From a virus, in IMG/VR virus record IMGVR_UViG_3300036845_000531, positions 1 to 20,214 of that record: a stretch of DNA of 20,214 bases; one strand, written 5' to 3'. Both the position numbers and the translations under genes were made by a program. Below, in pieces: positions 3,212-14,705 of this stretch. The notes beneath the pieces are model-generated. The model did no database searches. It saw nothing but the letters and a program-made list of their open reading frames with translations, and was not told where the DNA came from. Position 1 is the stretch's first letter, and each line of letters starts with the position of its first letter.

Positions 3212-3387
3212 TCGGTGCCCCTTCCACGGTTGGTAGCCAGGGTGTTCCACCTAGCGCGGCTGCGCCGCTCCGGGTGAGCCAGCTCGTAGCGCTGGTTGCG
3301 GGCCTGGCCCTTGCTGCTGGTGTTGTACCTAGCGTTGGCCAGCCTGCGCCGCTCAGCCCGGTCAGCTTCCGCTTGATCCGAACCCAT
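3208..3387 (-). CDS. Small Arg-rich repeat-like protein (59 aa)
   Basis: The gene encodes 59 highly basic residues. Two imperfect repeats of about 14-15 residues can be seen, ARYNTSSKGQARNQ and then RYELAHPERRSRARW, each with an aromatic-x-x-Ser/His-x-(K/E)-(G/R) core. Similar Arg-rich RYxxSxKGxAR patterns recur in small phage proteins of unknown role and suggest nucleic-acid binding. The ATG (3385-3387) lies 26 bases inside the end of the dUTPase gene. The stop overlaps the next start as GTGA. The frame has none of the low-complexity look of antisense shadows in this GC-rich sequence. Confidence 0.55.
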   Translation of the reverse strand: MGSDQAEADRAERRRLANARYNTSSKGQARNQRYELAHPERRSRARWNTLATNRGRGTE

Positions 3388-4063
3388 TGGTGCCCCGCTC
3401 GCTGTCCGGCAGTGCCACGTACGGCTCTACGAAGTGGACCTGCAGGCCCTCCAGCAGGTTCGGCAGGACGATAAGCTGGGCCACCCGGGTGCCCCTGGGC
3501 AGGTGCAGGATGCTGCACTGGCCCAGCGGATCGGCGGTAAGAGGCCGGTACAGCATGACCCGCAGCTCGCCCCGCCATCCTTCGTCGATGATCCCGGCCA
3601 TCACGATCAGGCCGTGCTTGCTCCAGGTCGAGGACCGCCCCGTAATCCAGCCGAACGTGCCGTGGGGCAGCGCGACCGCTACGCCGCATGGCACGTTCGC
3701 GGTGCCGCCCGGCGCGACCTCCACGTCCTGTGACAGAGCCAGATCCAGGCCGCAATCGCCCGCGTACGACGGAGGGGTGAACGGCGGCAGGTCCTGGCCG
3801 TCCGTGCGCTTGGCTACCAGAACGTGGCGGGAGAAGTCTTGTGAACCGCCGGACGTAGCGCCCAGGCTGTCCTGGACGTGAACAGGACCACGACGGGTCC
3901 GGCGGCGTTCCGCTATCACGTCCCGCTGGGTCATCTGCTCAGCGTCCCCCGGAAACGGGCTGGCCGTCGGGAACGGTGGCCACGGGTCGTCTGGCCTGGC
4001 CGGAACCCGGAATGTCCGGATCTCGCTCCCTAGCGGGTAGTCGGCTCCGTCGGCGTCGTTCAT
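3362..4063 (-). CDS. dut: dUTPase (dUTP diphosphatase) with N-terminal extension
   Basis: The 233-residue product hydrolyses dUTP to dUMP and pyrophosphate, keeping uracil out of DNA and supplying dUMP. All five motifs of the trimeric dUTPase family are visible: AGDCGLDL (101-108), GRSSTWSKHGL (142-152), GIIDEGWRGEL (157-167), RGTRVAQLIVLP (190-201), and the C-terminal arm RGTNGFGSSG (223-232) that closes over the nucleotide. The catalytic Asp of motif 3 (GIID) is present. The family is usually about 140-160 residues, so the first 80 or so residues are an unexplained extension. An internal ATG at residue 44 could shorten it, but the ATG at 4061-4063 overlaps the upstream stop as ATGA. It lies directly after the putative nucleotide pyrophosphohydrolase and PurZ-like genes, a nucleotide-pool cluster. 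Confidence 0.93.
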   Translation of the reverse strand: MNDADGADYPLGSEIRTFRVPARPDDPWPPFPTASPFPGDAEQMTQRDVIAERRRTRRGPVHVQDSLGATSGGSQDFSRHVLVAKRTDGQDLPPFTPPSYAGDCGLDLALSQDVEVAPGGTANVPCGVAVALPHGTFGWITGRSSTWSKHGLIVMAGIIDEGWRGELRVMLYRPLTADPLGQCSILHLPRGTRVAQLIVLPNLLEGLQVHFVEPYVALPDSERGTNGFGSSGS

Positions 4064-4560
4064 GACATCCACCTTCCGTGCTCTCGGACATAGCGCCCTA
4101 TGTAAGTGTAGATCGTGCCGTCGTGCCAGGTGTCGCCGCGCGGCTCCCGGCCCATCTGCCACGCACTGAACAGGCGAGAGGTCTTGCCCATCAGGTAGAA
4201 CCCGATGGCCATCTCCAGGCCAGCCCGCTCGCGCGACTCGCGGTCGAGGTCGGCTCCGGCGGGCAGCAGGGCCTCCATTGACTTGCCCATGATCACGAAG
4301 TCGTAGCCGCCGTACTCGTCGGCCTTGTCCTTGAGGCCCTGCAGGTCGGCCTCGAACGTGGCGCGCAGCCACTTTTCGATCTTGTCCCACTGGGCGTCGG
4401 CCTCCTGCACCCGGGGTGTAGCGGGTCCCATCCACGTCGAGCTGCACTTGAGACCGCTACGGAGTGCGGCAACCAGGCCGCAGTCGCCGCACACGTCGGT
4501 GTCGCCTGGTTCGACGCTGGGCCACAGGTGGCCGTTCTCGTCGCGGTAGGTGACAGGCAT
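4060..4560 (-). CDS. MazG/Nmad1-like putative nucleotide pyrophosphohydrolase (MazZ candidate)
   Basis: The gene encodes 166 residues. The N-terminus carries Cys24-x2-Cys27 and Cys39, possibly a small zinc site. The C-terminal domain (about 60-166) resembles all-alpha MazG-superfamily or DUF1599/Nmad1-type phage proteins: DEYGGYD (81-87), Glu116 in GLEMAIGFYLMGKTSRLFSAW, then DTWHD (143-147) and the YxxIxRYVREHGRW end. The acidic residues would bind Mg in a dNTP pyrophosphohydrolase. In Z-genome phages MazZ converts dGTP and dATP to the monophosphates, making dGMP for PurZ. Here the ATG shares one base with the purZ stop (TGATG), which strongly suggests a linked function. Assignment to MazZ rests on context plus fold-level resemblance; an Nmad1 protein of unknown substrate is the alternative. 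Confidence 0.6.
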   Translation of the reverse strand: MPVTYRDENGHLWPSVEPGDTDVCGDCGLVAALRSGLKCSSTWMGPATPRVQEADAQWDKIEKWLRATFEADLQGLKDKADEYGGYDFVIMGKSMEALLPAGADLDRESRERAGLEMAIGFYLMGKTSRLFSAWQMGREPRGDTWHDGTIYTYIGRYVREHGRWMS

Positions 4561-5711
4561 CAGGACCGCGCCAGAGAGTTCTGGAGGTTGATGATGGTCG
4601 AGGGCGAGGTACCGACCAGCTCGACCGGGCGGCCGATGTCGGCGGACCGGGACGCGAGCAGGCGATCCCACGCGTGCATCTTGTGGTCGGGGATGTCCTT
4701 CTCGAACCACAGGCCGGACAGCTCCGGGATCACGTAGTCGGCCATCGTGAGAGCAGCATGCACGGGGGACCCGGGGCCATGTCCGTGACCGTTGGCCTCC
4801 ATCGCCGCGCGTGCCAGGCGGCCATCCCACTGGCCGACCCGCCGCACCTTACGGGTGACCGTAGTGTGCTCCTCCGGCAGGCCAAGCGCCTCCCACGTGG
4901 TTTCGTGCAGGAGGGGACCTGAGTTGCCAGCCACCCGGATGGGCAGGGTACGGAACACTACCCACGCCTCGAACCTGAAGCCACCGGCCGACCACGGCGC
5001 GATCCCGGCCATGGCCAGCATGTCCATCGCGGTGCAGTCGGACGAGGTGCACTGAGGGTAGTAGCCCGCATGGGTGCCCAGCAGGTAGCCCTGGGTTCCC
5101 TCGACCAGCACCTGGCCGCCGTCGCCCAGGTGGCCCATTGCATCGCGAGCTACGGACCCACCGAACCTGGTGAAGCGGTCCAGGAGGCGGCAGTCCCCCG
5201 CGAGGGTGGCCTCCCTCATCGCGCGGGACGCGCGGGCAGCTCCGATTCCCTTGGCAGTCGATCCGATCCGGTCCGACAGGTTGCGTCCGGCCTCGGCTTG
5301 CTTGTGACCGTCCTCTATCACCGTGGCGGTCCAGTCCACGGTCAGGCGTTCCCCGGCGTTGTACCCGGCCGCGTCGAGCGCAGCCACCTCTGCAAGGAGG
5401 ACCTGGGGGTCAACCTCGGACCCGGCCGCGATCGCCAGCATCGACGAGGTGTTGCTGACCGCCGCGACCGGGACCTGCCGGAGCCGCCACGGATGGCGGT
5501 CGGACGCGTGGAAGTCGGGACCGGGGTCGGGAAGCTCGGTGGCGGCCGAGTTCGTGCAGTCCGGCGGGCACCGGCCGATGACGGTGTGACCGGCGTTAGG
5601 TCCGGCAACGCGAATGGCGAGTCCGTTGGTGTGAAGGGAACAGAGGTAGGCGGCGATCGCGCCCTTGCCCTCGGACCCGTACTGGCCTCCTACGACGGCC
5701 TGCAGTGTCAC
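4560..5711 (-). CDS. purZ: PurZ-like N6-succino-2-amino-2'-deoxyadenylate synthase (PurA family)
   Basis: The gene encodes 383 residues of the adenylosuccinate synthetase family. The P-loop reads GGQYGSEGKG (8-17). PurA has GDEGKG with a catalytic Asp, and replacement of that Asp by Ser is the diagnostic change of PurZ, which joins aspartate to dGMP on the way to dZMP (2-aminoadenine). Other PurA landmarks are kept: AGPNAGHT with its His, TAKGIGAARASRAMR, VLVEGTQGYLLGTHAGYYP, RKVRRVGQWDGRLAR, and a C-terminal GRPVELVGTSPS. Family members are about 340-430 residues. The GTG start (5709-5711) is preceded by AAGGAGA. A promoter-like element lies at 5771-5800 and the MazZ candidate follows by TGATG. 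Ordinary PurA is the alternative, but the Ser argues against it. ATP versus GTP as phosphate donor cannot be settled here. Confidence 0.88.
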   Translation of the reverse strand: MTLQAVVGGQYGSEGKGAIAAYLCSLHTNGLAIRVAGPNAGHTVIGRCPPDCTNSAATELPDPGPDFHASDRHPWRLRQVPVAAVSNTSSMLAIAAGSEVDPQVLLAEVAALDAAGYNAGERLTVDWTATVIEDGHKQAEAGRNLSDRIGSTAKGIGAARASRAMREATLAGDCRLLDRFTRFGGSVARDAMGHLGDGGQVLVEGTQGYLLGTHAGYYPQCTSSDCTAMDMLAMAGIAPWSAGGFRFEAWVVFRTLPIRVAGNSGPLLHETTWEALGLPEEHTTVTRKVRRVGQWDGRLARAAMEANGHGHGPGSPVHAALTMADYVIPELSGLWFEKDIPDHKMHAWDRLLASRSADIGRPVELVGTSPSTIINLQNSLARS

Positions 5712-5770
5712 TAGCTCTCCTTAGGGTTGCGGTCCCCGGTGGGCATCCACCAGCCGGGGACCGTAGGACC

Positions 5771-5800
5771 AGGCTACCCTGGCACTTGTCGGCGTGTCAA
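5771..5800 (-). promoter_or_regulatory. Promoter-like element upstream of purZ
   Basis: On the minus strand TTGACA (5795-5800) is followed after 18 bases by TAGCCT (5771-5776). The spacer contains GACAA four bases after the -35, as in six other elements of this window. Transcription would begin near 5764, about 50 bases before the purZ start. The element overlaps the last codon of the resolvase gene. Confidence 0.7.
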
Positions 5801-6337
5801 CAACGGGGAAGAGGGGTCGCGGGCAGCCCACACGACGCCGTGAGACGCGGCATCGCGGCGATGGGGACGGCCGGGCAGGTCGAAGTCGGGACCACGGTAC
5901 TTGAACCGGCCGGAGCCGAGGACGCGGCTCTTCATCTTGAAACCGGACGACTTGGCGATAGCCCGGCCAGCCTTCAGGTTACCCTTGGCGTCCTGCTGGG
6001 TGAGGGGCAGGCTGGCACGGTCGGCCAGGTACCGGACTACGCCGACGCACTGGGAAGTAAGCAGCTCGGAATAGCCCTGCTCGCGGGCCAGCCACGGGTA
6101 CAGGGAATAGCGCTCCAGGACCAGGTGGTGGAGGGAGGGGATCAGGGTCTCCAGCTTGCGGTAGAGCTGCTGTGGCTCCAGGGTCAGGCAGGTGAGCAGG
6201 ACGATCCGGCCCTTGGTGGACTGGTCGATGCAGTCGCCAGCGTAGCGCATGGAGCAGCCAGGGCGGAGCAGGAAGATAGCGAGGCCGCACCACGATTCGC
6301 CAGGGTCTACGGCAGCGACCTGGTAGCCCCTGGACAT
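5774..6337 (-). CDS. RuvC-like Holliday junction resolvase
   Basis: The gene encodes 187 residues with the RNase H fold signature of phage RuvC-like resolvases. Asp11 lies in strand 1 (VAAVDPGESWCGLAIF), Glu75 in LVLERYSLYP, and the C-terminal acidic site is His159-x2-Asp162 in HRRDAASHGVVWA. These four residues would bind the two metal ions that cut branched DNA, removing recombination and replication intermediates before packaging. Length is close to RuvC (about 170). The ATG at 6335-6337 shares one base with the stop of the upstream 49-aa gene. The last codons overlap the purZ promoter element. Direct homology to bacterial RuvC versus a phage-specific RNase H-like nuclease cannot be separated by eye. 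Confidence 0.85.
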   Translation of the reverse strand: MSRGYQVAAVDPGESWCGLAIFLLRPGCSMRYAGDCIDQSTKGRIVLLTCLTLEPQQLYRKLETLIPSLHHLVLERYSLYPWLAREQGYSELLTSQCVGVVRYLADRASLPLTQQDAKGNLKAGRAIAKSSGFKMKSRVLGSGRFKYRGPDFDLPGRPHRRDAASHGVVWAARDPSSPLLTRRQVPG

Positions 6338-6486
6338 CAGGACCCGCTGCCCAGGACGCGGCGCAGAAGACGGGCAACAGGCGACTCATTTTCCAGGTCC
6401 TGGCGCTCCTGCTCCTCGCGCATGGCGACGTGATCGGGACACGGACAGTCGTTGTCCTCGTCGTAGTGAGCGTCCGGGTAGCTCAT
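6337..6486 (-). CDS. Small acidic protein with CPC motif (49 aa)
   Basis: The gene encodes 49 residues, beginning MSYPDAHYDEDNDCPCPDHV, with CPC at 14-16 and His19, then a charged helical stretch (REEQERQDLENES) and a basic end (ARLLRRVLGSGS). Whether the Cys and His bind metal is unclear. No family is recognised. Support comes from the junctions: its ATG overlaps the stop of the 34-aa membrane gene (ATGA) and its TGA overlaps the resolvase start (TGATG). It is therefore one link of an unbroken chain of coupled genes running from the polymerase to the resolvase. Confidence 0.55.
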   Translation of the reverse strand: MSYPDAHYDEDNDCPCPDHVAMREEQERQDLENESPVARLLRRVLGSGS

Positions 6487-6587
6487 CGCAGGACCAGCCA
6501 GACAGCGAGGCCGAGAACAGCGGCGATGATCAGGAGGACAGCGACCACCCGGAGCCAGTCGAGGGAAGTCCCGGCCGACGCGCCCAT
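6483..6587 (-). CDS. Single-pass membrane microprotein (34 aa)
   Basis: The gene encodes 34 residues with a polar N-terminus (MGASAGTSLDW) and one clear transmembrane helix (about 12-33, including VVAVLLIIAAVLGLAVWLVL). The ATG shares one base with the stop of the 70-aa upstream gene, and its own TGA overlaps the next ATG. The coupling at both ends supports a real gene despite its size. Function is unknown. It is one of two membrane microproteins between the polymerase and the resolvase. Confidence 0.5.
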   Translation of the reverse strand: MGASAGTSLDWLRVVAVLLIIAAVLGLAVWLVLR

Positions 6588-6799
6588 CAGAGACGGCCGA
6601 GTCGCCTGGGAGGGGCAGAGTGACGGGACCACGACCGGGGGCACTTAAGGCAGATGTAGTGATCGATCCGGCGGGCCAGCAGATGGCGGTGTGGAATGAA
6701 GTAACGCCACCACGCGTACCGGCCGCCCCGGGTGGCCAGGACTACGGCGGTAGCGGCGGTGAAGACAGCAGCCGGAATCAGGACGTCGGTAGAAGTCAC
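6587..6799 (-). CDS. Small membrane protein with basic C-terminus (70 aa)
   Basis: The gene encodes 70 residues. An N-terminal hydrophobic segment (about 5-22, VLIPAAVFTAATAVVLA) is followed by a basic, aromatic and Cys-containing tail (YICLKCPRSWSRH, with CxxC). The likely topology is an N-terminal anchor with a cytoplasmic tail that might bind metal. The start is a GTG at 6797-6799 overlapping the polymerase stop as GTGA. No family is recognised. It lies directly behind the polymerase gene, so it should be made in coupled fashion with it. Confidence 0.55.
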   Translation of the reverse strand: MTSTDVLIPAAVFTAATAVVLATRGGRYAWWRYFIPHRHLLARRIDHYICLKCPRSWSRHSAPPRRLGRL

Positions 6800-8802
6800 G
6801 CGGCAACCTCCTCGAAGTAGGCCGAGGAGCCGAAACGCTTAACGTCGGCCTTGAACGGGACAGGGGAGAACAGGTTAGAGAAGGTAGAGACGATGGCCGA
6901 GGACATAGCCGGAACGACGCCCTCCACGTCTGTGACAGGTATACGGCACACGAGGGAGTCGTGGATCTGGAGCAGGAGCAGGCCAGGATACTCGCGGTCG
7001 AAACGGACCATAGTGATGCGCATGCCCTCGGAGACGTCGCCCTGGACCCGCTGGTTGAACGCCTTGTGGACCGGCTCGTAGTCTGCGAACTTCCGGACCT
7101 TGCCGGTGCACAGGCGGACGAAGCCAGACTCGGTGGCCATCTGCGAGAAGGTCCAGAGGGCACGGGCAAAGGCAGGGAAGGCGTTCTTGTAGTCGGAGAT
7201 CCACTCGCGGCACTGGTCGACCGAGTAGTCGTAGCCGGTGAACTTTAGGATCTGGGTCCGGAGACCGCCAGCGCCGATGCCGTACAGGATGCCGAGGTTG
7301 CAGCGCTTAGCGACCTGGCGGTAACGCTCCCACTCGGCCATCAGCTTGGCGTCAGCCACGGACTTGTCAGGAAAGAACATCAGCTTGCAGGCGGCGTCGT
7401 GCGAGTCAACACCAGCGCGGAGGGCGCGTAGCATCGACTTCTCCTGAGCAACCTTGGTGGCTACCCGGATCTCGGCCTGGGATGCGTCAGCTTCCCAGTG
7501 CTCGTAGCCGTCATCGTTGCCAAGGAAAGATCGGATAGGCTCGATGCCGGGAGGGATCTGGTAGTCGTGGGGCAGAGCCTGAGCCTGGAAACGTTCCACA
7601 GAGAGACGACCTGAGACGACTCGTCCCTGACGATGAGTAGTCCGGAGACGCCCATCGGGTCCAGCAAGAGCGGGGAAGGCGGCGTACCACTTGGACCGGG
7701 CACTGGACAGCTCCTGGTAGTGGGCGTACTCGGAAGCACCGGGGGCACCGGCCTTGATCAGGCGGCCGATGACCTCCTCGTCGACCTGAGGATTGGCGTG
7801 GGAGGTGATCTTGTCGGAGTAGGGGAGGTAGCCGAGGCCGCCGTCCTTGGGTGCACCGAAGAAGTATTTGATGGCGGAGGGGGAAGTAGGGCGGCCAGTG
7901 CCGCCCTTGAAGGGGACAGCAGCGGCAGCGTCCTGGATGAGGGAGTCCAGCTTGGACAGCTCACGGCGGCAGCCGGGGGCGTCAAAGCCCACTCCTCGGA
8001 CCTCCATCCCGTAGAGGGTCCGGAGGAGGGCGAACTCCTCCTCGCAGCGGATCAGGGTCTGGTCGTTAAGCTGGGACTGCTGGTACTCGTAGAGCAGGTA
8101 GGTAAGCTGGGCATCGCGGGCCGCGTAGGGGCCGAGGATGAACCATGGAATCAGGTCAAAGCGGGGATCGGTGCGAGGACCTTTCCAGGGGCCGAGGGCC
8201 TCCTGCTCGGCGGCCTCGTCGCCCTCCTCTATGCCGAGGGCCTTGCCGATGTGAAGGCGGACGGCGGTGTCCTTGAGGCCGATCGGGTAGCCGGGCCAGA
8301 GCTGGCCAGAAGCGAGCATCGAGTCCCACACGAGGGCGGGCATGAGGTTGACGTGGCCGCCGTCCCACGGCGGATGGGGAGACTGGAACTCGCAGTTGCC
8401 GCCGTGAGGGCGGTCGCGCTGGCCCGCGTAGAACTGGAGGGAGTCGTGCTTGCCGTTGTGCATGATGAGCTGTTGCCGGGACAGCCAGGACACCAGGCGA
8501 TCCCAGGCAAGGAAGGAACGGTTAGGGGCCGAGTAGAGCTGGGCAGGAGTAAGGTCGGGGTAGGCAGCAGCCCACTTGGCAAGGCGACGAGAGTGGGTGG
8601 CGGGGATCTGCTTCGGACCGCAGGGCAGGCAGGTGAAGTCGGATCCCTGGTCGAACGGGACAGCGATCGACACAAGGTCAGAAGAGGCAGGGTCCCGCCA
8701 CGCGGCGGAGACAACGCTAATGCGAGCACCGTCGTCGTTGAACAGGCCGGACGACTCGGAGTCGAGAGCGACCAGGAGTCCGGAGACGGGCGGCAGCTTC
8801 AT
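6796..8802 (-). CDS. Family A DNA polymerase with 3'-5' exonuclease (DpoZ candidate)
   Basis: The gene encodes 668 residues. The N-terminal DnaQ-type exonuclease has Exo I (LDSESSG, Asp14 and Glu16), Exo II (HNGKHD, Asp120) and Exo III (YAARD, Asp230), so proofreading looks intact. The polymerase domain has motif A DASQAEIRV (Asp439), motif B RQVAKRCNLGILYG (Arg495, Lys499, Tyr507) and motif C QIHDSL (His614, Asp615). Motif C in PolA is usually HDE; here Glu is Ser616. There is no 5'-3' exonuclease domain, as in other phage PolA enzymes. In Z-genome phages a related enzyme, DpoZ, favours dZTP over dATP. The candidate name here rests on the nearby purZ-like gene. The ATG at 8800-8802 overlaps the upstream stop (TGATG). 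Confidence 0.93.
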   Translation of the reverse strand: MKLPPVSGLLVALDSESSGLFNDDGARISVVSAAWRDPASSDLVSIAVPFDQGSDFTCLPCGPKQIPATHSRRLAKWAAAYPDLTPAQLYSAPNRSFLAWDRLVSWLSRQQLIMHNGKHDSLQFYAGQRDRPHGGNCEFQSPHPPWDGGHVNLMPALVWDSMLASGQLWPGYPIGLKDTAVRLHIGKALGIEEGDEAAEQEALGPWKGPRTDPRFDLIPWFILGPYAARDAQLTYLLYEYQQSQLNDQTLIRCEEEFALLRTLYGMEVRGVGFDAPGCRRELSKLDSLIQDAAAAVPFKGGTGRPTSPSAIKYFFGAPKDGGLGYLPYSDKITSHANPQVDEEVIGRLIKAGAPGASEYAHYQELSSARSKWYAAFPALAGPDGRLRTTHRQGRVVSGRLSVERFQAQALPHDYQIPPGIEPIRSFLGNDDGYEHWEADASQAEIRVATKVAQEKSMLRALRAGVDSHDAACKLMFFPDKSVADAKLMAEWERYRQVAKRCNLGILYGIGAGGLRTQILKFTGYDYSVDQCREWISDYKNAFPAFARALWTFSQMATESGFVRLCTGKVRKFADYEPVHKAFNQRVQGDVSEGMRITMVRFDREYPGLLLLQIHDSLVCRIPVTDVEGVVPAMSSAIVSTFSNLFSPVPFKADVKRFGSSAYFEEVAA

Positions 8803-10958: not shown

Positions 10959-12515
10959 ATGGAACCCAACAGCGAGCAGAGAGACATCGTGAGGGCGAGC
11001 AGGACGTCGAGGACGATGGTCGTGGACGCGCTCGCGGGGACGGGCAAGACCAGCACACTGGAGCTGGTCGGCGGAGCGAACCCGTACACGCAGTTCCTGT
11101 ACGTGGCGTTCAACCGGGCAGTGAAGGACGAGGCTGAGGCCAGGTTCCCGGGCAACGTGCGGTGCAAGACCTCCCACGGCATGGTCTTCATGCAGTACGG
11201 GAAGCGGTATGGCCACCGGCTCAACGCGCCCAGGGTGCCCAGCAGGCGGGCGGCATCGATCCTGGGACTCAGGGACGTGCGGGCCGAGTTCTGCGTGAGC
11301 TGCAACGAGGCAACGCAGGACGGGTACACGTGGGCTGCAGCCGAGGTGGACGCGGGGCGGGGCAGCGACTGGCACCTGTCGACGGACGCGGAGCAGCCGA
11401 AGAGCCACCAGGGCCACGCGGTGATGGCGGAGACGCTGGAGCCGGTGACGGTGGCCAACCTGGTGATGCGGACCGTGGACCGGTTCTGCCACAGCGCGGA
11501 CCGGAAGATGACGACCTGGCACGTGCCGTTTGCCAAGGGGGTGGACCCCAGGCTGATGCCAGCGATCCGGCAGGCCGTTCTCCCCCACGCGCAGGACGCG
11601 TGGACGGACATGCTGCAGGCGAACGGGCAACTGAGGTTCAGCCACGACGTCTACCTGAAGATGGCGCAGCTCGACGGGTGGCGGTGCAAGGAGGGAACGG
11701 TGCTGCTGGACGAGGCGCAGGACACGAACCCGTGCCTGAGCAGCATGTTCAAGAACATGACCGGGAAGAGGCTGTTCCTGGTCGGGGACCCCAACCAGGC
11801 GATCTACGAGTGGAGGGGTGCCAAGGACGCGATGGAGGAGTTCGAGACCGAGACCCGGCTGAGCCTGACCGGCAGCTACCGGTTCGGTCCGGCGATCGCG
11901 GAAGAGGCCAACCTGTGGCTGGGCATGCTGGGCACCGACCTGAGGCTGAGGGGCTGGAAGAAGCGCGACTCCCACGTGGTGGAGCGGATCGAGGACCCCG
12001 ATGCGATCCTGACCCGGAGCAACGCCGGGGCGATCGTCGAGACGATGGAGCAACTGGAGCGGGGCAAGAAGGTCGCGATCGTGGGCGGGGGCAAGGACAT
12101 CGAGGCCCTGGCGAGGGCGGCCCAGGACCTGCAGGCCGGGCGGAAGAGCGACCACCCGGAACTGGTCGTGTTCGAGAGCTGGACCGACGTGCAGCGGTAC
12201 TGCAAGGAAGAGCCTGAGGACGCGGGGACGCTGGTGCCGCTGGTCCGGGCGATCGACTCCCACGGTCCGCAGGCGATCATGGCCATGACCAGGCAGCTCG
12301 TGGACGAGTCGAACGCCGACGTGACCGTGAGCACGGCGCACAAGGCCAAGGGGCGGCAGTGGGGCAAGGTCAGGATCGGCGGGGACTTCCCTCCGCCCAA
12401 AGAAGGGGAGCCGCAGGAGAAGGAAGAGCTGAGGCTGGCGTACGTGGCCGTGACCCGGGCAATGTTCGAGCTGGACAAGGGCAGCCTGGACTACGCGACA
12501 GGAGTGGCAGCGTGA
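10959..12515 (+). CDS. UvrD/Rep-like superfamily 1 DNA helicase
   Basis: The gene encodes 518 residues with the SF1A helicase motifs in order: Q motif (EPNSEQRDIV), Walker A AGTGKT (26-31), Ia (YVAFNRAVKDEA), motif II LLDEAQDTNP (Asp251-Glu252), motif III (FLVGDPNQAIYEWRGA), motif IV (GSYRFGPAIAEEAN), motif V (STAHKAKGRQWGKV) and motif VI (RLAYVAVTRA). It should unwind DNA 3'-5' using ATP and may act in phage replication or recombination. At about 518 residues it is shorter than UvrD (about 720), with reduced 1B/2B regions, like other phage and Fbh1-like helicases. The ATG is preceded by AGGAGAGG and a strong promoter. It starts the rightward unit and couples by TGATG to the next gene. Confidence 0.93.
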   Translation: MEPNSEQRDIVRASRTSRTMVVDALAGTGKTSTLELVGGANPYTQFLYVAFNRAVKDEAEARFPGNVRCKTSHGMVFMQYGKRYGHRLNAPRVPSRRAASILGLRDVRAEFCVSCNEATQDGYTWAAAEVDAGRGSDWHLSTDAEQPKSHQGHAVMAETLEPVTVANLVMRTVDRFCHSADRKMTTWHVPFAKGVDPRLMPAIRQAVLPHAQDAWTDMLQANGQLRFSHDVYLKMAQLDGWRCKEGTVLLDEAQDTNPCLSSMFKNMTGKRLFLVGDPNQAIYEWRGAKDAMEEFETETRLSLTGSYRFGPAIAEEANLWLGMLGTDLRLRGWKKRDSHVVERIEDPDAILTRSNAGAIVETMEQLERGKKVAIVGGGKDIEALARAAQDLQAGRKSDHPELVVFESWTDVQRYCKEEPEDAGTLVPLVRAIDSHGPQAIMAMTRQLVDESNADVTVSTAHKAKGRQWGKVRIGGDFPPPKEGEPQEKEELRLAYVAVTRAMFELDKGSLDYATGVAA

Positions 12516-12790
12516 TGAGGACGATAGTGACCGGGGTCCCGGCCGGACTGGACCCCGGCAGGCCGCAGCGGATGAGGTTCCTGCGGATGCACCAGGACGC
12601 AGAGGGGATGGTGGCAGTGTACGAGTGGTTGCCGCCGGAGCCGCAGACGACTACGCTGAGGGTGACAGTAACAACGCAGGGCGAGGACCGGCTGCTCCAC
12701 CAGGAGGACGTGGAGAGGGTTACCCGGGCGCTAAGCCACTCGGGGTCCGACGCAACGTGGGAGATGGAAGGAGGTGGGGACGATGGCTAA
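12515..12790 (+). CDS. Hypothetical protein (91 aa)
   Basis: The gene encodes 91 residues beginning MRTIVTGVPAGLDPGRPQRM. The pattern of short strands (FLRMHQDAEGMVAVYEWL; TTLRVTVTTQG) followed by a helix (EDVERVTRALSHSG) suggests a small alpha/beta domain. No family is recognised. The ATG shares its A with the helicase TGA (TGATG), so translation is coupled to the helicase. It overlaps the next small gene by eight bases, and its 3' end carries that gene's strong ribosome site (GGAGGTG). The coupling suggests a helicase accessory role, but this is inference. Confidence 0.6.
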   Translation: MRTIVTGVPAGLDPGRPQRMRFLRMHQDAEGMVAVYEWLPPEPQTTTLRVTVTTQGEDRLLHQEDVERVTRALSHSGSDATWEMEGGGDDG

Positions 12791-12890
12791 GTGCATCCAG
12801 TGCATGGGGCCTGGCGGGCAAGCCAAGCTGGGCGGACTGTGCAAGCGGTGCGCGCCGATCCGGCGGGCGATGCGCTGGCTCGGCCGGTAA
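12783..12890 (+). CDS. Zinc-ribbon microprotein (35 aa)
   Basis: The gene encodes 35 residues with two CxxC knuckles, Cys4-x2-Cys7 and Cys20-x2-Cys23, and a basic C-terminus (RRAMRWLGR). This is a minimal zinc ribbon, as seen in many tiny phage proteins that bind nucleic acid or RNA polymerase. The ATG at 12783 has a near-perfect ribosome site (GGAGGTG) seven bases upstream, which argues strongly that it is translated. It is the last gene before a terminator hairpin, so it belongs to the helicase unit. Confidence 0.6.
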   Translation: MAKCIQCMGPGGQAKLGGLCKRCAPIRRAMRWLGR

Positions 12891-12895
12891 GGACA

Positions 12896-12931
12896 GAGGC
12901 CCCCGGATCAGAGTCTGCGGCCGGGGGCCTC
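12896..12931 (+). terminator. Terminator of the helicase unit
   Basis: An 11-bp perfect stem (12896-12906 with 12921-12931; GAGGCCCCCGG) surrounds a 14-base loop and begins six bases after the stop codon of the 35-aa gene. A promoter for the next gene starts 16 bases later. Confidence 0.75.
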
Positions 12932-12946
12932 GTCGTGGGCGGGGAG

Positions 12947-12976
12947 TTGACAAGAGGACACAAAGGTGGTTTACTG
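12947..12976 (+). promoter_or_regulatory. Promoter-like element upstream of the DUF2786-like gene
   Basis: TTGACA (12947-12952) is followed by AGAG-GACAC, the same arrangement as the other elements, and by TTTACT/TTACTG at 12970-12976 as a weak -10. It lies between a terminator and a gene start at 13030, so a promoter is needed here. Confidence 0.6.
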
Positions 12977-13029
12977 GGGGGACGAGGGGACGCGAGGCGC
13001 GGACCCCGGAGCCGAGAGGAAACGGCAAA

Positions 13030-14025
13030 ATGAGCGCAGTGGTGGAAACCAAGGACGCGAACAGCAGGCTGGGCACGGTCAGGAAGCTGCTGGCCAAGGC
13101 CGACGACCTGGCCAGGGCGGGAGACCAGCACAGCCTGAACGAGGCCGAGGCGCTGAACGAGCGGGCGGCTGAGCTGATCGCGAGCTACGGAATCGACAAG
13201 GCGATGCTGGCAGCGGACGGCAGCTTCGGAGACGAGATCGTCGACGAGGTGATCATCGTCGGCAAGCCGTTCGCCAAGGAGTTCACCGACCTGCTGTGGT
13301 ACGTGGCCTCGAACATGCGGGCCAAGGGGCGGCTGATCAAGCGGTGGAATAAGGAGCTGCACGGCGGCCGGACCAAGGGCGGGTACGAGTACGGGCTGCG
13401 GCTGTTCGCGTACGAGAGCGACATGGAGCGGATCAAGCTGGTGTACGGCAGCGTCAAGAACCAGGCGCTCGCGGGCATGAGCAAGATCGTGGACCGCAGC
13501 AGCACGTACGGGCAGACTCAGAAGGCGGACCGGCAGAGCTACCTGGACGGGTTCGGCACGGCAGTGTACTCAAGGCTGCAAAGGGCCGAGAGGGAGGCCC
13601 AGCGGATCAAGCAGGCCGAACTGGACGAGGCCAGGGACGTGGCGATGATCGAGGGCCGGAGCACGGCAACCGGGTTCAGCACCGAGCTGGTGCTGTCGGA
13701 CCGGGGGCTGGCGGTCAAGGTCGCGATGGACGCGGCGTACGGGATCACCCAGGCCCAGCGGGCAAAGTGGGCCGAGGACGACAAAAAGGCCAGCGAGGCG
13801 TGGGAGGCCGGAGCAGCGGACCGCGAGAGGGAGCGCGCCGAGTGCAAGCGCTGCAGCAAGGGCAGGCCGTGCAGCCAGCACGGCACCGCGATGGGGCGGA
13901 GCCGCGACTACCAGCGCGTGGGAAGCAAGTGGAGCGCCGGTTACACGGACGGCAGCAAGGCCGACCTGAGCGGCAGCAGCGGACGGCAGCGGATCAGCGG
14001 AACGCGGGCCACAATCGAGCAGTAG
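13030..14025 (+). CDS. DUF2786-like protein
   Basis: The gene encodes 331 residues. The N-terminal 50 or so residues (LGTVRKLLAKADDLARAG, then LNEAEALNERAAELIASYGI) match the DUF2786 pattern: a helix with a (K/R)xxLLxxA core and a helix with EAxx...AxxLxxxYGI. The central region is helical and basic. The C-terminus has a Cys/His group (CKRCSKGRPCSQHG) and a Ser/Gly/Arg-rich tail that may bind nucleic acid. The biochemical role of DUF2786 is unknown; it is common in actinobacterial phages and plasmids. The ATG at 13030 is preceded by GAGAGGA. It is a single-gene unit with its own promoter element and terminator. Confidence 0.78.
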   Translation: MSAVVETKDANSRLGTVRKLLAKADDLARAGDQHSLNEAEALNERAAELIASYGIDKAMLAADGSFGDEIVDEVIIVGKPFAKEFTDLLWYVASNMRAKGRLIKRWNKELHGGRTKGGYEYGLRLFAYESDMERIKLVYGSVKNQALAGMSKIVDRSSTYGQTQKADRQSYLDGFGTAVYSRLQRAEREAQRIKQAELDEARDVAMIEGRSTATGFSTELVLSDRGLAVKVAMDAAYGITQAQRAKWAEDDKKASEAWEAGAADRERERAECKRCSKGRPCSQHGTAMGRSRDYQRVGSKWSAGYTDGSKADLSGSSGRQRISGTRATIEQ

Positions 14026-14043
14026 CGGTAGCGGTAAGGTAAA

Positions 14044-14074
14044 GGCCCCGCCCCCCACGTCGGGTGGCGGGGCC
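14044..14074 (+). terminator. Terminator after the DUF2786-like gene
   Basis: A 9-bp GC stem (14044-14052 GGCCCCGCC with 14066-14074), extended by CCC/GGG across a bulged T, begins 19 bases after the stop codon. A further promoter-like element follows at 14091. Confidence 0.7.
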
Positions 14075-14090
14075 GCGCCGTGTCCGAGGG

Positions 14091-14120
14091 TTGACAAGCG
14101 GACAAGGACGTGGTTGGGTG
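14091..14120 (+). promoter_or_regulatory. Promoter-like element upstream of the 178-aa gene
   Basis: TTGACA (14091-14096) is followed by AGCG-GACAA, identical in spacing to the other elements. The -10 position reads TTGGGT/TGGGTG, a poor match, so this copy may be weak, activator-dependent, or mainly an operator site. Confidence 0.45.
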
Positions 14121-14168
14121 GAGGCAATCGGGCCTGGATGCCCGGAACCAACGCAAGGAGAGCACGCA

Positions 14169-14705
14169 ATGTCGCAGGCAGACAAGCTGAACCCCGACCA
14201 CATCCCCTACACGCCGGACCCGGACGCCCACGAGGCGGGCATGCCGAGGCGCGGCCAGCGGGTGAAGGTGAACGGGTCGCACGCGGGCATGGAAGCGCGG
14301 GGCCTGGAGGATGGCCACGAGGGGATCGTGGTCGGCCACGCCAGGGGACGGAGGGCGCATCGCCACTTCGTCAAGAACGTGGTCGCCGCCAGCAAGGCCG
14401 GGCGGCCGGTCAGCGGGGACGACTACGAGCCGCTGATCGACAACGAAGGTCCGCTGGTGCAGTGGGACGGCAAGGAGAACGAGGACCCCGACTGGTTCCC
14501 CGGCCAGGCCGAGGGGATCATCGCGGTAACCAAGCCGTTCGACATCGAGGCCGTGGCCGAGATCGTCAGGCAGGCGCTGGCGGAGCACGCCGGGGCCGAG
14601 GTCGGGATGTTTGAGCCGGTCGGGGACAAGGAGTGGCTGATCGGCGCGAAGACGGCCAACGGGGTGCCGCTGAGCGTCGTCGTCGGGGTCACGCCCGACA
14701 AGTAG
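14169..14705 (+). CDS. Hypothetical protein (178 aa)
   Basis: The gene encodes 178 residues beginning MSQADKLNPDHIPYTPDPDA. The middle (RRGQRVKVNGSHAGMEARGL, then EGIVVGHARGRRAHRHFV) has the look of a small beta-barrel such as SH3/KOW. The C-terminus (GMFEPVGDKEWLIGAKTANG) is alpha/beta. No family is recognised. The ATG at 14169 is preceded by AAGGAGA. The gene forms a single-gene unit between a promoter-like element and a strong terminator, which suggests independent control and perhaps a regulatory or early function. Confidence 0.65.
   Translation: MSQADKLNPDHIPYTPDPDAHEAGMPRRGQRVKVNGSHAGMEARGLEDGHEGIVVGHARGRRAHRHFVKNVVAASKAGRPVSGDDYEPLIDNEGPLVQWDGKENEDPDWFPGQAEGIIAVTKPFDIEAVAEIVRQALAEHAGAEVGMFEPVGDKEWLIGAKTANGVPLSVVVGVTPDK

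Follow-up and report, generated by a model that had tools for sequence, protein, structure and literature searches.

Z-DNA, in which 2-aminoadenine (Z) stands in for adenine, is the known case of full adenine replacement in a genome. In the phages S-2L, phiVC8 and SH-Ab 15497, the synthetase gene purZ has pool enzymes beside it, in clusters that include DatZ and MazZ. In the actinophage modules built on the subtype PurZ0 (Gordonia phages Ghobes and Archimedes, Arthrobacter phage Wayne, Streptomyces phages Hiyaa and Galactica), a dUTPase-type gene lies downstream and a family A polymerase gene upstream. A 2026 study of PurZ0 phages (PMC12884076) names DutZ, DmtZ and DUF5664-1 in them, and demonstrates biochemically that DutZ from Wayne and from Ghobes breaks down both dATP and dGTP by hydrolysis.

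The stretch considered here, called the window below, is the entire IMG/VR virus record IMGVR_UViG_3300036845_000531 (20,214 base pairs, bp), a fragment of an uncultured tailed phage whose host was probably an actinobacterium; no near DNA match exists among 50,697 phage records (INPHARED). On its minus strand a PurZ-like gene is flanked by dUTPase and polymerase genes just as in the actinophages. We hold with good confidence that this is a PurZ0-type module for Z-DNA. The reading is well supported by the identity of the PurZ protein, its phylogeny, conserved synteny and a polymerase of the Wayne-type DpoZ clade. The module type is already known; what is new is a strictly linked, uncharacterised companion family, and a branch of the DpoZ lineage that carries Tyr in motif B.

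The PurZ protein and its pool enzymes

The gene at 4560-5711 (GTG start after AAGGAG) encodes a protein of 383 amino acids (aa), noted in a preliminary description as a PurA-family member with GSEGKG. The motif is there (5661-5678), within GQYGSEGKG: aligned to S-2L and phiVC8 PurZ and to E. coli PurA, it has Ser in place of the PurA catalytic Asp13. The protein scores 301 bits against the PurZ model NF038379 (cut-off 300; E 7.9e-90) and matches PHROG 1211 (E 1.5e-73); it stays well under the PurA cut-offs, at 124 against 395 bits for TIGR00184 purA and 198 against 368 for the archaeal-type PRK04293. Its top PDB relative is 7vf6, at 236 bits, with S-2L PurZ (7odx) far behind.

The loci used for comparison were labelled by origin: L004-L048 are viral loci of the PurZ0 clade, L049-L083 more distant viral PurZ loci, and L094-L173 genome (chromosomal) loci. 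In a tree of 78 rows, the window protein groups with L004 and L005 (99 in the Shimodaira-Hasegawa-like approximate likelihood ratio test, SH-aLRT); the three are nested in a 25-row clade (SH-aLRT 99) that holds all six named PurZ0-type reference phages, including Wayne, Ghobes, Archimedes, Hiyaa and Galactica. Canonical PurA stands apart at 100, and so does the clade of S-2L, phiVC8 and SH-Ab 15497 (100). The phylogeny that had been proposed as a check therefore sets the protein among phage PurZ0 sequences and outside cellular PurA. Identity is 49-51% to Hiyaa and Galactica and 42-44% to the Arthrobacter phages. The gene order, polymerase-ruvC-purZ-companion-dut, is identical in L004, L005, L287 and L289, at 40-72% identity.

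With the S-2L-type enzymes the protein shares the Ser at the catalytic position and most of the dGMP pocket. Measured against the ligand contacts of S-2L PurZ (PMC8342488), the residues kept are Y11-G12-S13, N39-A40, G150-S151-T152, Q207, R259-V260 and the TTVT loop at 283-286. The donor side differs: the S-2L-type enzymes combine GSTGKG with NFxQ/N (NFAQ or NFCN in S-2L and phiVC8), and the window protein combines GSEGKG with TMAD, whose Asp is as in PurA. This Asp suggests that the nucleotide donor is probably GTP, and PurZ0 has been described as GTP-using. S-2L PurZ uses ATP or dATP (PMC8342488); PMC12884076 has PurZ0 and PurZ preferring ATP and GTP ‘respectively’. Because that order conflicts with the S-2L result and with that description of PurZ0, we read it as swapped and go by the Asp. 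Taken together, profiles, tree and residues identify the 383-aa protein as PurZ of the PurZ0 subtype, a predicted succinyl-2-amino-dAMP synthase.

A Cys-bearing insertion (GRCPPDC...) directly follows the NAGHTV loop of this protein, at residues ~45-78 (window 5480-5580). It recurs in L004, L005, L006, L038, L188, Hiyaa and Galactica, and is absent from Wayne, Ghobes, Archimedes, S-2L and VC8.

The dUTPase-fold protein (233 aa, 3362-4063, minus strand; PF00692 8.6e-23, PHROG 135 1.4e-33) has all five motifs intact, with the motif-3 Tyr replaced by Trp, as in L004, L005, L006 and L038. It brings trimeric-type motifs to the position that DutZ takes in purZ0 modules, and is presumed to be DutZ. 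Since its homologues in Wayne and Ghobes act on dATP and dGTP, it is the likeliest enzyme here to clear dATP and supply dGMP. No domain could be recognised in its N-terminal extension of ~90 residues (window 3784-4063), the place occupied in other PurZ0 phages by DmtZ or by a DmtZ fusion.

DmtZ, an NDT-like dAMP hydrolase/transferase, lies between the companion and dUTPase genes in most relatives, where its invariant residues (Y6, D12, P57, N77 and E103) are the published ones. The window lacks it, unlike the actinophage modules, and so do the L287, L005 and L291 contigs (59-64 kb); the same search was positive in Wayne, Ghobes and L292. A search for the HD-domain dATPase DatZ had been suggested. 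A query that was positive in S-2L, VC8 and SH-Ab detected none in the window and none in 20 PurZ0-phage records, fragments included; as none turned up in those 20 records, DatZ is not expected here. Neither DatZ nor DmtZ was found in one related 62-kb contig. MazZ and DUF5664 were likewise not found in the 20-kb window, although absence from a 20,214-bp fragment proves little by itself. The window thus lacks both the DatZ and the MazZ of the S-2L, phiVC8 and SH-Ab 15497 clusters, and of the Z-genome module as first described, the module and its PurZ stand while the S-2L-type model of PurZ, MazZ and DatZ does not. PurB-type (Lyase_1) genes occur in eight of the 20 PurZ0-phage records; none was seen in the window or in its closest relatives, L004 and L005. 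Their absence from these two relatives is the ground for presuming host PurB.

Synthesis would begin with the dUTPase-fold protein acting as DutZ, as its Wayne and Ghobes homologues do, turning dATP and dGTP into monophosphates; dATP is thereby cleared and dGMP supplied. PurZ0 would then join dGMP to aspartate, probably with GTP as donor, giving succinyl-2-amino-dAMP, and host PurB and host kinases would complete dZTP.

A companion gene tied to purZ0

Between purZ and the dUTPase gene lies a gene for a 166-aa protein (4060-4560, minus strand). The couplings on its two sides are as first reported: purZ runs into it by a TGATG stop/start overlap (4558-4562), and it runs into the dUTPase gene by ATGA (4060-4063). 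The labels it had been given, MazG/Nmad-like and MazZ-like, did not survive: Pfam, NCBIfam and PDB sequence searches give no useful match, and what remains are weak signals to DUF6378 and Nmad proteins.

What defines the family is its neighbour. The first weak tblastn matches, Archimedes gp51 and IndiRoo gp59, each come directly after purZ; further members are Ghobes gp51 and the C-termini of Galactica gp66 and Hiyaa gp68. Such members were aligned (A1; the later A4 has 71 of them). When IMG/VR was scanned by pattern with only the window's companion sequence, no match came up, and the family alignment was needed instead. With the companion family as sole query, purZ is encoded in 78 loci among the best 80 of 98 hits, nearly always no more than about 500 bp upstream; the two loci without it start close to a contig end, at 327 and 58 bp. 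Two cautions apply: the A1 members had originally been found via purZ, and many loci are near-copies (70 clusters below 85% identity over all scans). Seen from the side of purZ, all 45 viral loci of the PurZ0 clade have the companion and none of the 35 more distant viral loci does; among the 80 genome loci it occurs once, in L094, itself inside the PurZ0 clade. Five of the six named PurZ0-type phages have it; Wayne carries DUF5664 at that place. The companion family is strictly tied to purZ0, a near-obligate partner in every checkable case. No mention of it was found in the main text of PMC12884076; given so tight a tie, its omission from current models of the Z pathway is probably a gap.

The family shares the invariant residues K79, Y122, K126, R129, D143, D147 and Y151 (in A1 and A4), giving the pattern K-x2-R, D-x3-D-x3-Y. 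AlphaFold2 predicts four helices for the window protein (pLDDT 86.5) and likewise for its L004 homologue (pLDDT 93.8, pTM 0.81). Two Foldseek searches of the PDB with companion models gave nothing significant. Against a viral library, Foldseek retrieves family members, followed below threshold by DUF6378 (prob 0.90, E 0.33) and Nmad proteins. The DUF6378 profile is matched weakly by 5 of the 71 members (best E 0.0027), and alignment of the two profiles gives E 0.0072 and a probability of 5%, with equal spacing of K-x2-R ... D-x3-D-x3-Y. The resemblance to DUF6378 is thus remote and under significance, though suggestive; we know of no function for DUF6378. Like the companion, DUF6378 protein gp29 of Salmonella phage 9NA is encoded next to a dUTPase gene; unlike in the window, no purZ is annotated within the 50 kb of 9NA examined. 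PHROG 474, ‘phosphofructokinase’, matches 20 companion members weakly (best 3.5e-4) and was treated as an annotation artefact.

One could still suppose a system of the S-2L or SH-Ab 15497 type, with PurZ, MazZ and DatZ, in which the 166-aa gene is a diverged MazZ: it has the equal position beside purZ, a similar size and an all-helical predicted fold. This idea is largely refuted, and we rate it as highly improbable. Profile alignment of the companion to S-2L MazZ and phiVC8 p26 fails; MazG, DUF550 and DUF5664 profiles do not match it, hhalign against DUF5664 of the Wayne gp51 type gives a probability of 0.1%, and no MazG-type PDB entry is matched by sequence or by fold. Identity with MazZ or DUF5664 was accordingly rejected, after profile-profile comparison, Pfam, PHROGs, PDB and Foldseek all ended without a significant match. 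The partner enzymes speak in the same sense, with PurZ outside the S-2L/VC8/SH-Ab clade and DatZ missing from the records searched. On sequence, then, the companion is a separate uncharacterised family that takes the position of MazZ or DUF5664. Most simply, it would be another enzyme of the deoxynucleotide pool, or a partner or regulator of PurZ0.

Near the N-terminus of the companion (window 4430-4530) there is a Cys-rich stretch, DVCGDCG in the window; L005 has such a stretch too, and most members lack it.

The polymerase and the residue in motif B

The exonuclease-bearing family A polymerase placed about 1 kb upstream in the preliminary description is encoded at 6796-8802 (minus strand), its end 1,084 bp upstream of purZ. 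The match to DNA_pol_A is 4.6e-33; the 3'-5' exonuclease residues (D14/E16, D120, Y226/D230) and polymerase motifs A, B and C are present, motif B (RQVAKRCNLGILYG) being of the Tyr type. The DpoZ model NF038381 (phage_DpoZ_2) fits best by a factor of two, at 252 bits against 127 for the next PolA model. In a tree of 76 rows, from a quick search with no mixture model, so that deep branching is provisional, the protein falls in the Wayne-type DpoZ clade (61 members, support 100), of which 57 carry purZ. Of the 58 polymerases scoring at least 500, 55 are purZ-positive; the exceptions are Streptomyces phage Stuff and two fragments. The protein is of the DpoZ type by lineage, with reservations over its score and its Tyr; it is only ~30% identical to the polymerases of Wayne and Ghobes. 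By virtue of that lineage, it would copy the genome with dZTP in preference to dATP.

Several findings tell against the reading of the window as a Z-DNA module. The margin of the PurZ protein over the NF038379 cut-off is slim, 301 against 300 bits. The polymerase does not reach the cut-off of NF038381 (252 against 350 bits), and keeps the ordinary Tyr (ILYG) at the position of phiVC8 F459. The polymerase of Stuff, which belongs to the Wayne-type clade and has Phe, comes from a phage that lacks purZ. Of 80 PurA-family loci retrieved from bacterial and archaeal chromosomes, 77 have Ser at position 13. The record is incomplete, and genes missing from it may lie outside. Finally, the case for Z in the virion DNA, which is likely, is made from the genes.

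The polymerase findings could mean that replacement is partial: PurZ0 and the pool enzymes raise dZTP, the Tyr-type enzyme does not discriminate, and adenine is either replaced in part or kept out solely through depletion of dATP. There is precedent in S-2L, where DatZ depletes dATP and the PrimPol is non-selective; moreover, Tyr is kept in 31 of the 55 purZ-positive polymerases scoring at least 500. Yet polymerases of this lineage occur almost only in purZ phages, which suggests co-adaptation, and the weight placed on Phe is doubtful. It was reported as the only residue common to both described DpoZ clades, in a study that also found no single residue to set Z selectivity (PMC8599892). Here Phe marks one derived sub-clade (support 98) of the Wayne-type clade; ILYG recurs in L004, L005, L287 and L289, and Hiyaa and Galactica are also Tyr-type. 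Ghobes is Phe-type. Motif-B Phe was dropped as a mark of Z, since Stuff has it without purZ and 31 purZ phages have Tyr: genetically it is not required, and it does not suffice either. Partial replacement, or exclusion that depends on the dATP pool, seems unlikely, if still a serious contender. Stuff itself (L091, 14630-16974) has a MazG-like gene directly upstream of its Phe-type polymerase gene; it has either lost purZ or uses a DpoZ-like enzyme on ordinary DNA.

The chromosomal Ser13 proteins raise another possibility: a PurA-family enzyme kept for a different purpose, be it host-like purine metabolism or the unassigned role of those paralogs, while the virion carries ordinary DNA. That GSEGKG is diagnostic by itself, as first supposed, can no longer be maintained, and it was dropped as a stand-alone mark. 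The chromosomal proteins are best taken as paralogs, because canonical PurA is also present in nine of the ten Ser-type genomes checked. The window protein lies in the phage PurZ0 clade and not among these paralogs, and its gene sits in a conserved module with the companion, a DutZ-like protein and a polymerase of the DpoZ lineage. A different purpose is consequently improbable.

Within the preferred reading, that of a PurZ0-type Z module, a more specific proposal comes a little short of an even chance: that PurZ0 systems not of the Wayne type have in the companion a near-obligate component so far overlooked, with undescribed chemistry or regulation, and that the group to which the window belongs replicates Z-DNA with a Tyr-type polymerase and without DatZ, MazZ, DUF5664 or DmtZ. 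If so, the Phe of DpoZ would be a later refinement, not a requirement. The window and its relatives in any case form a natural contrast set from which the requirements of Z selection might be learned: a single purZ-linked clade has polymerases of both the Tyr and the Phe type, and modules occur with and without DmtZ.

Neighbouring genes and more distant relatives

The interval between the polymerase and purZ genes holds a candidate RuvC/RNase H-like resolvase gene (5774-6337, minus strand; PHROG 5202 2.3e-8). Similar open reading frames (ORFs) occur in L004, L005, L287 and L289, and also in Wayne and Ghobes. The gene is syntenic with the module and has no known membership in Z synthesis.

The PurZ proteins of the more distant viral loci (L049-L083) are Ser-type but fall outside the PurZ0 clade; dUTPase-like or DmtZ-like genes accompany some of them, the companion none. 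They are a further set of Z-module variants.

The chromosomal Ser-type paralogs lie in a conserved gene set (L097:7941-11843, L096:7575-11059, L163:7831-12149 and others among L094-L173). On the upstream side, RNase_H_2 (DEDDh-like), DUF429 and an AAA_18 kinase-like domain are fused in one protein; on the downstream side lies a dCTP-deaminase/dUTPase-like protein. Among the 70 loci whose context is complete, 37 have all four parts. No literature linking DUF429 with adenylosuccinate synthetase was found. The set is a possible cellular purZ-like island, its role unassigned.

In the window itself, three genes at 10959-14705 (plus strand) run opposite to the rest. One encodes a UvrD-type helicase and another a DUF2786 protein; the third is an ORF with a conserved counterpart in L005.

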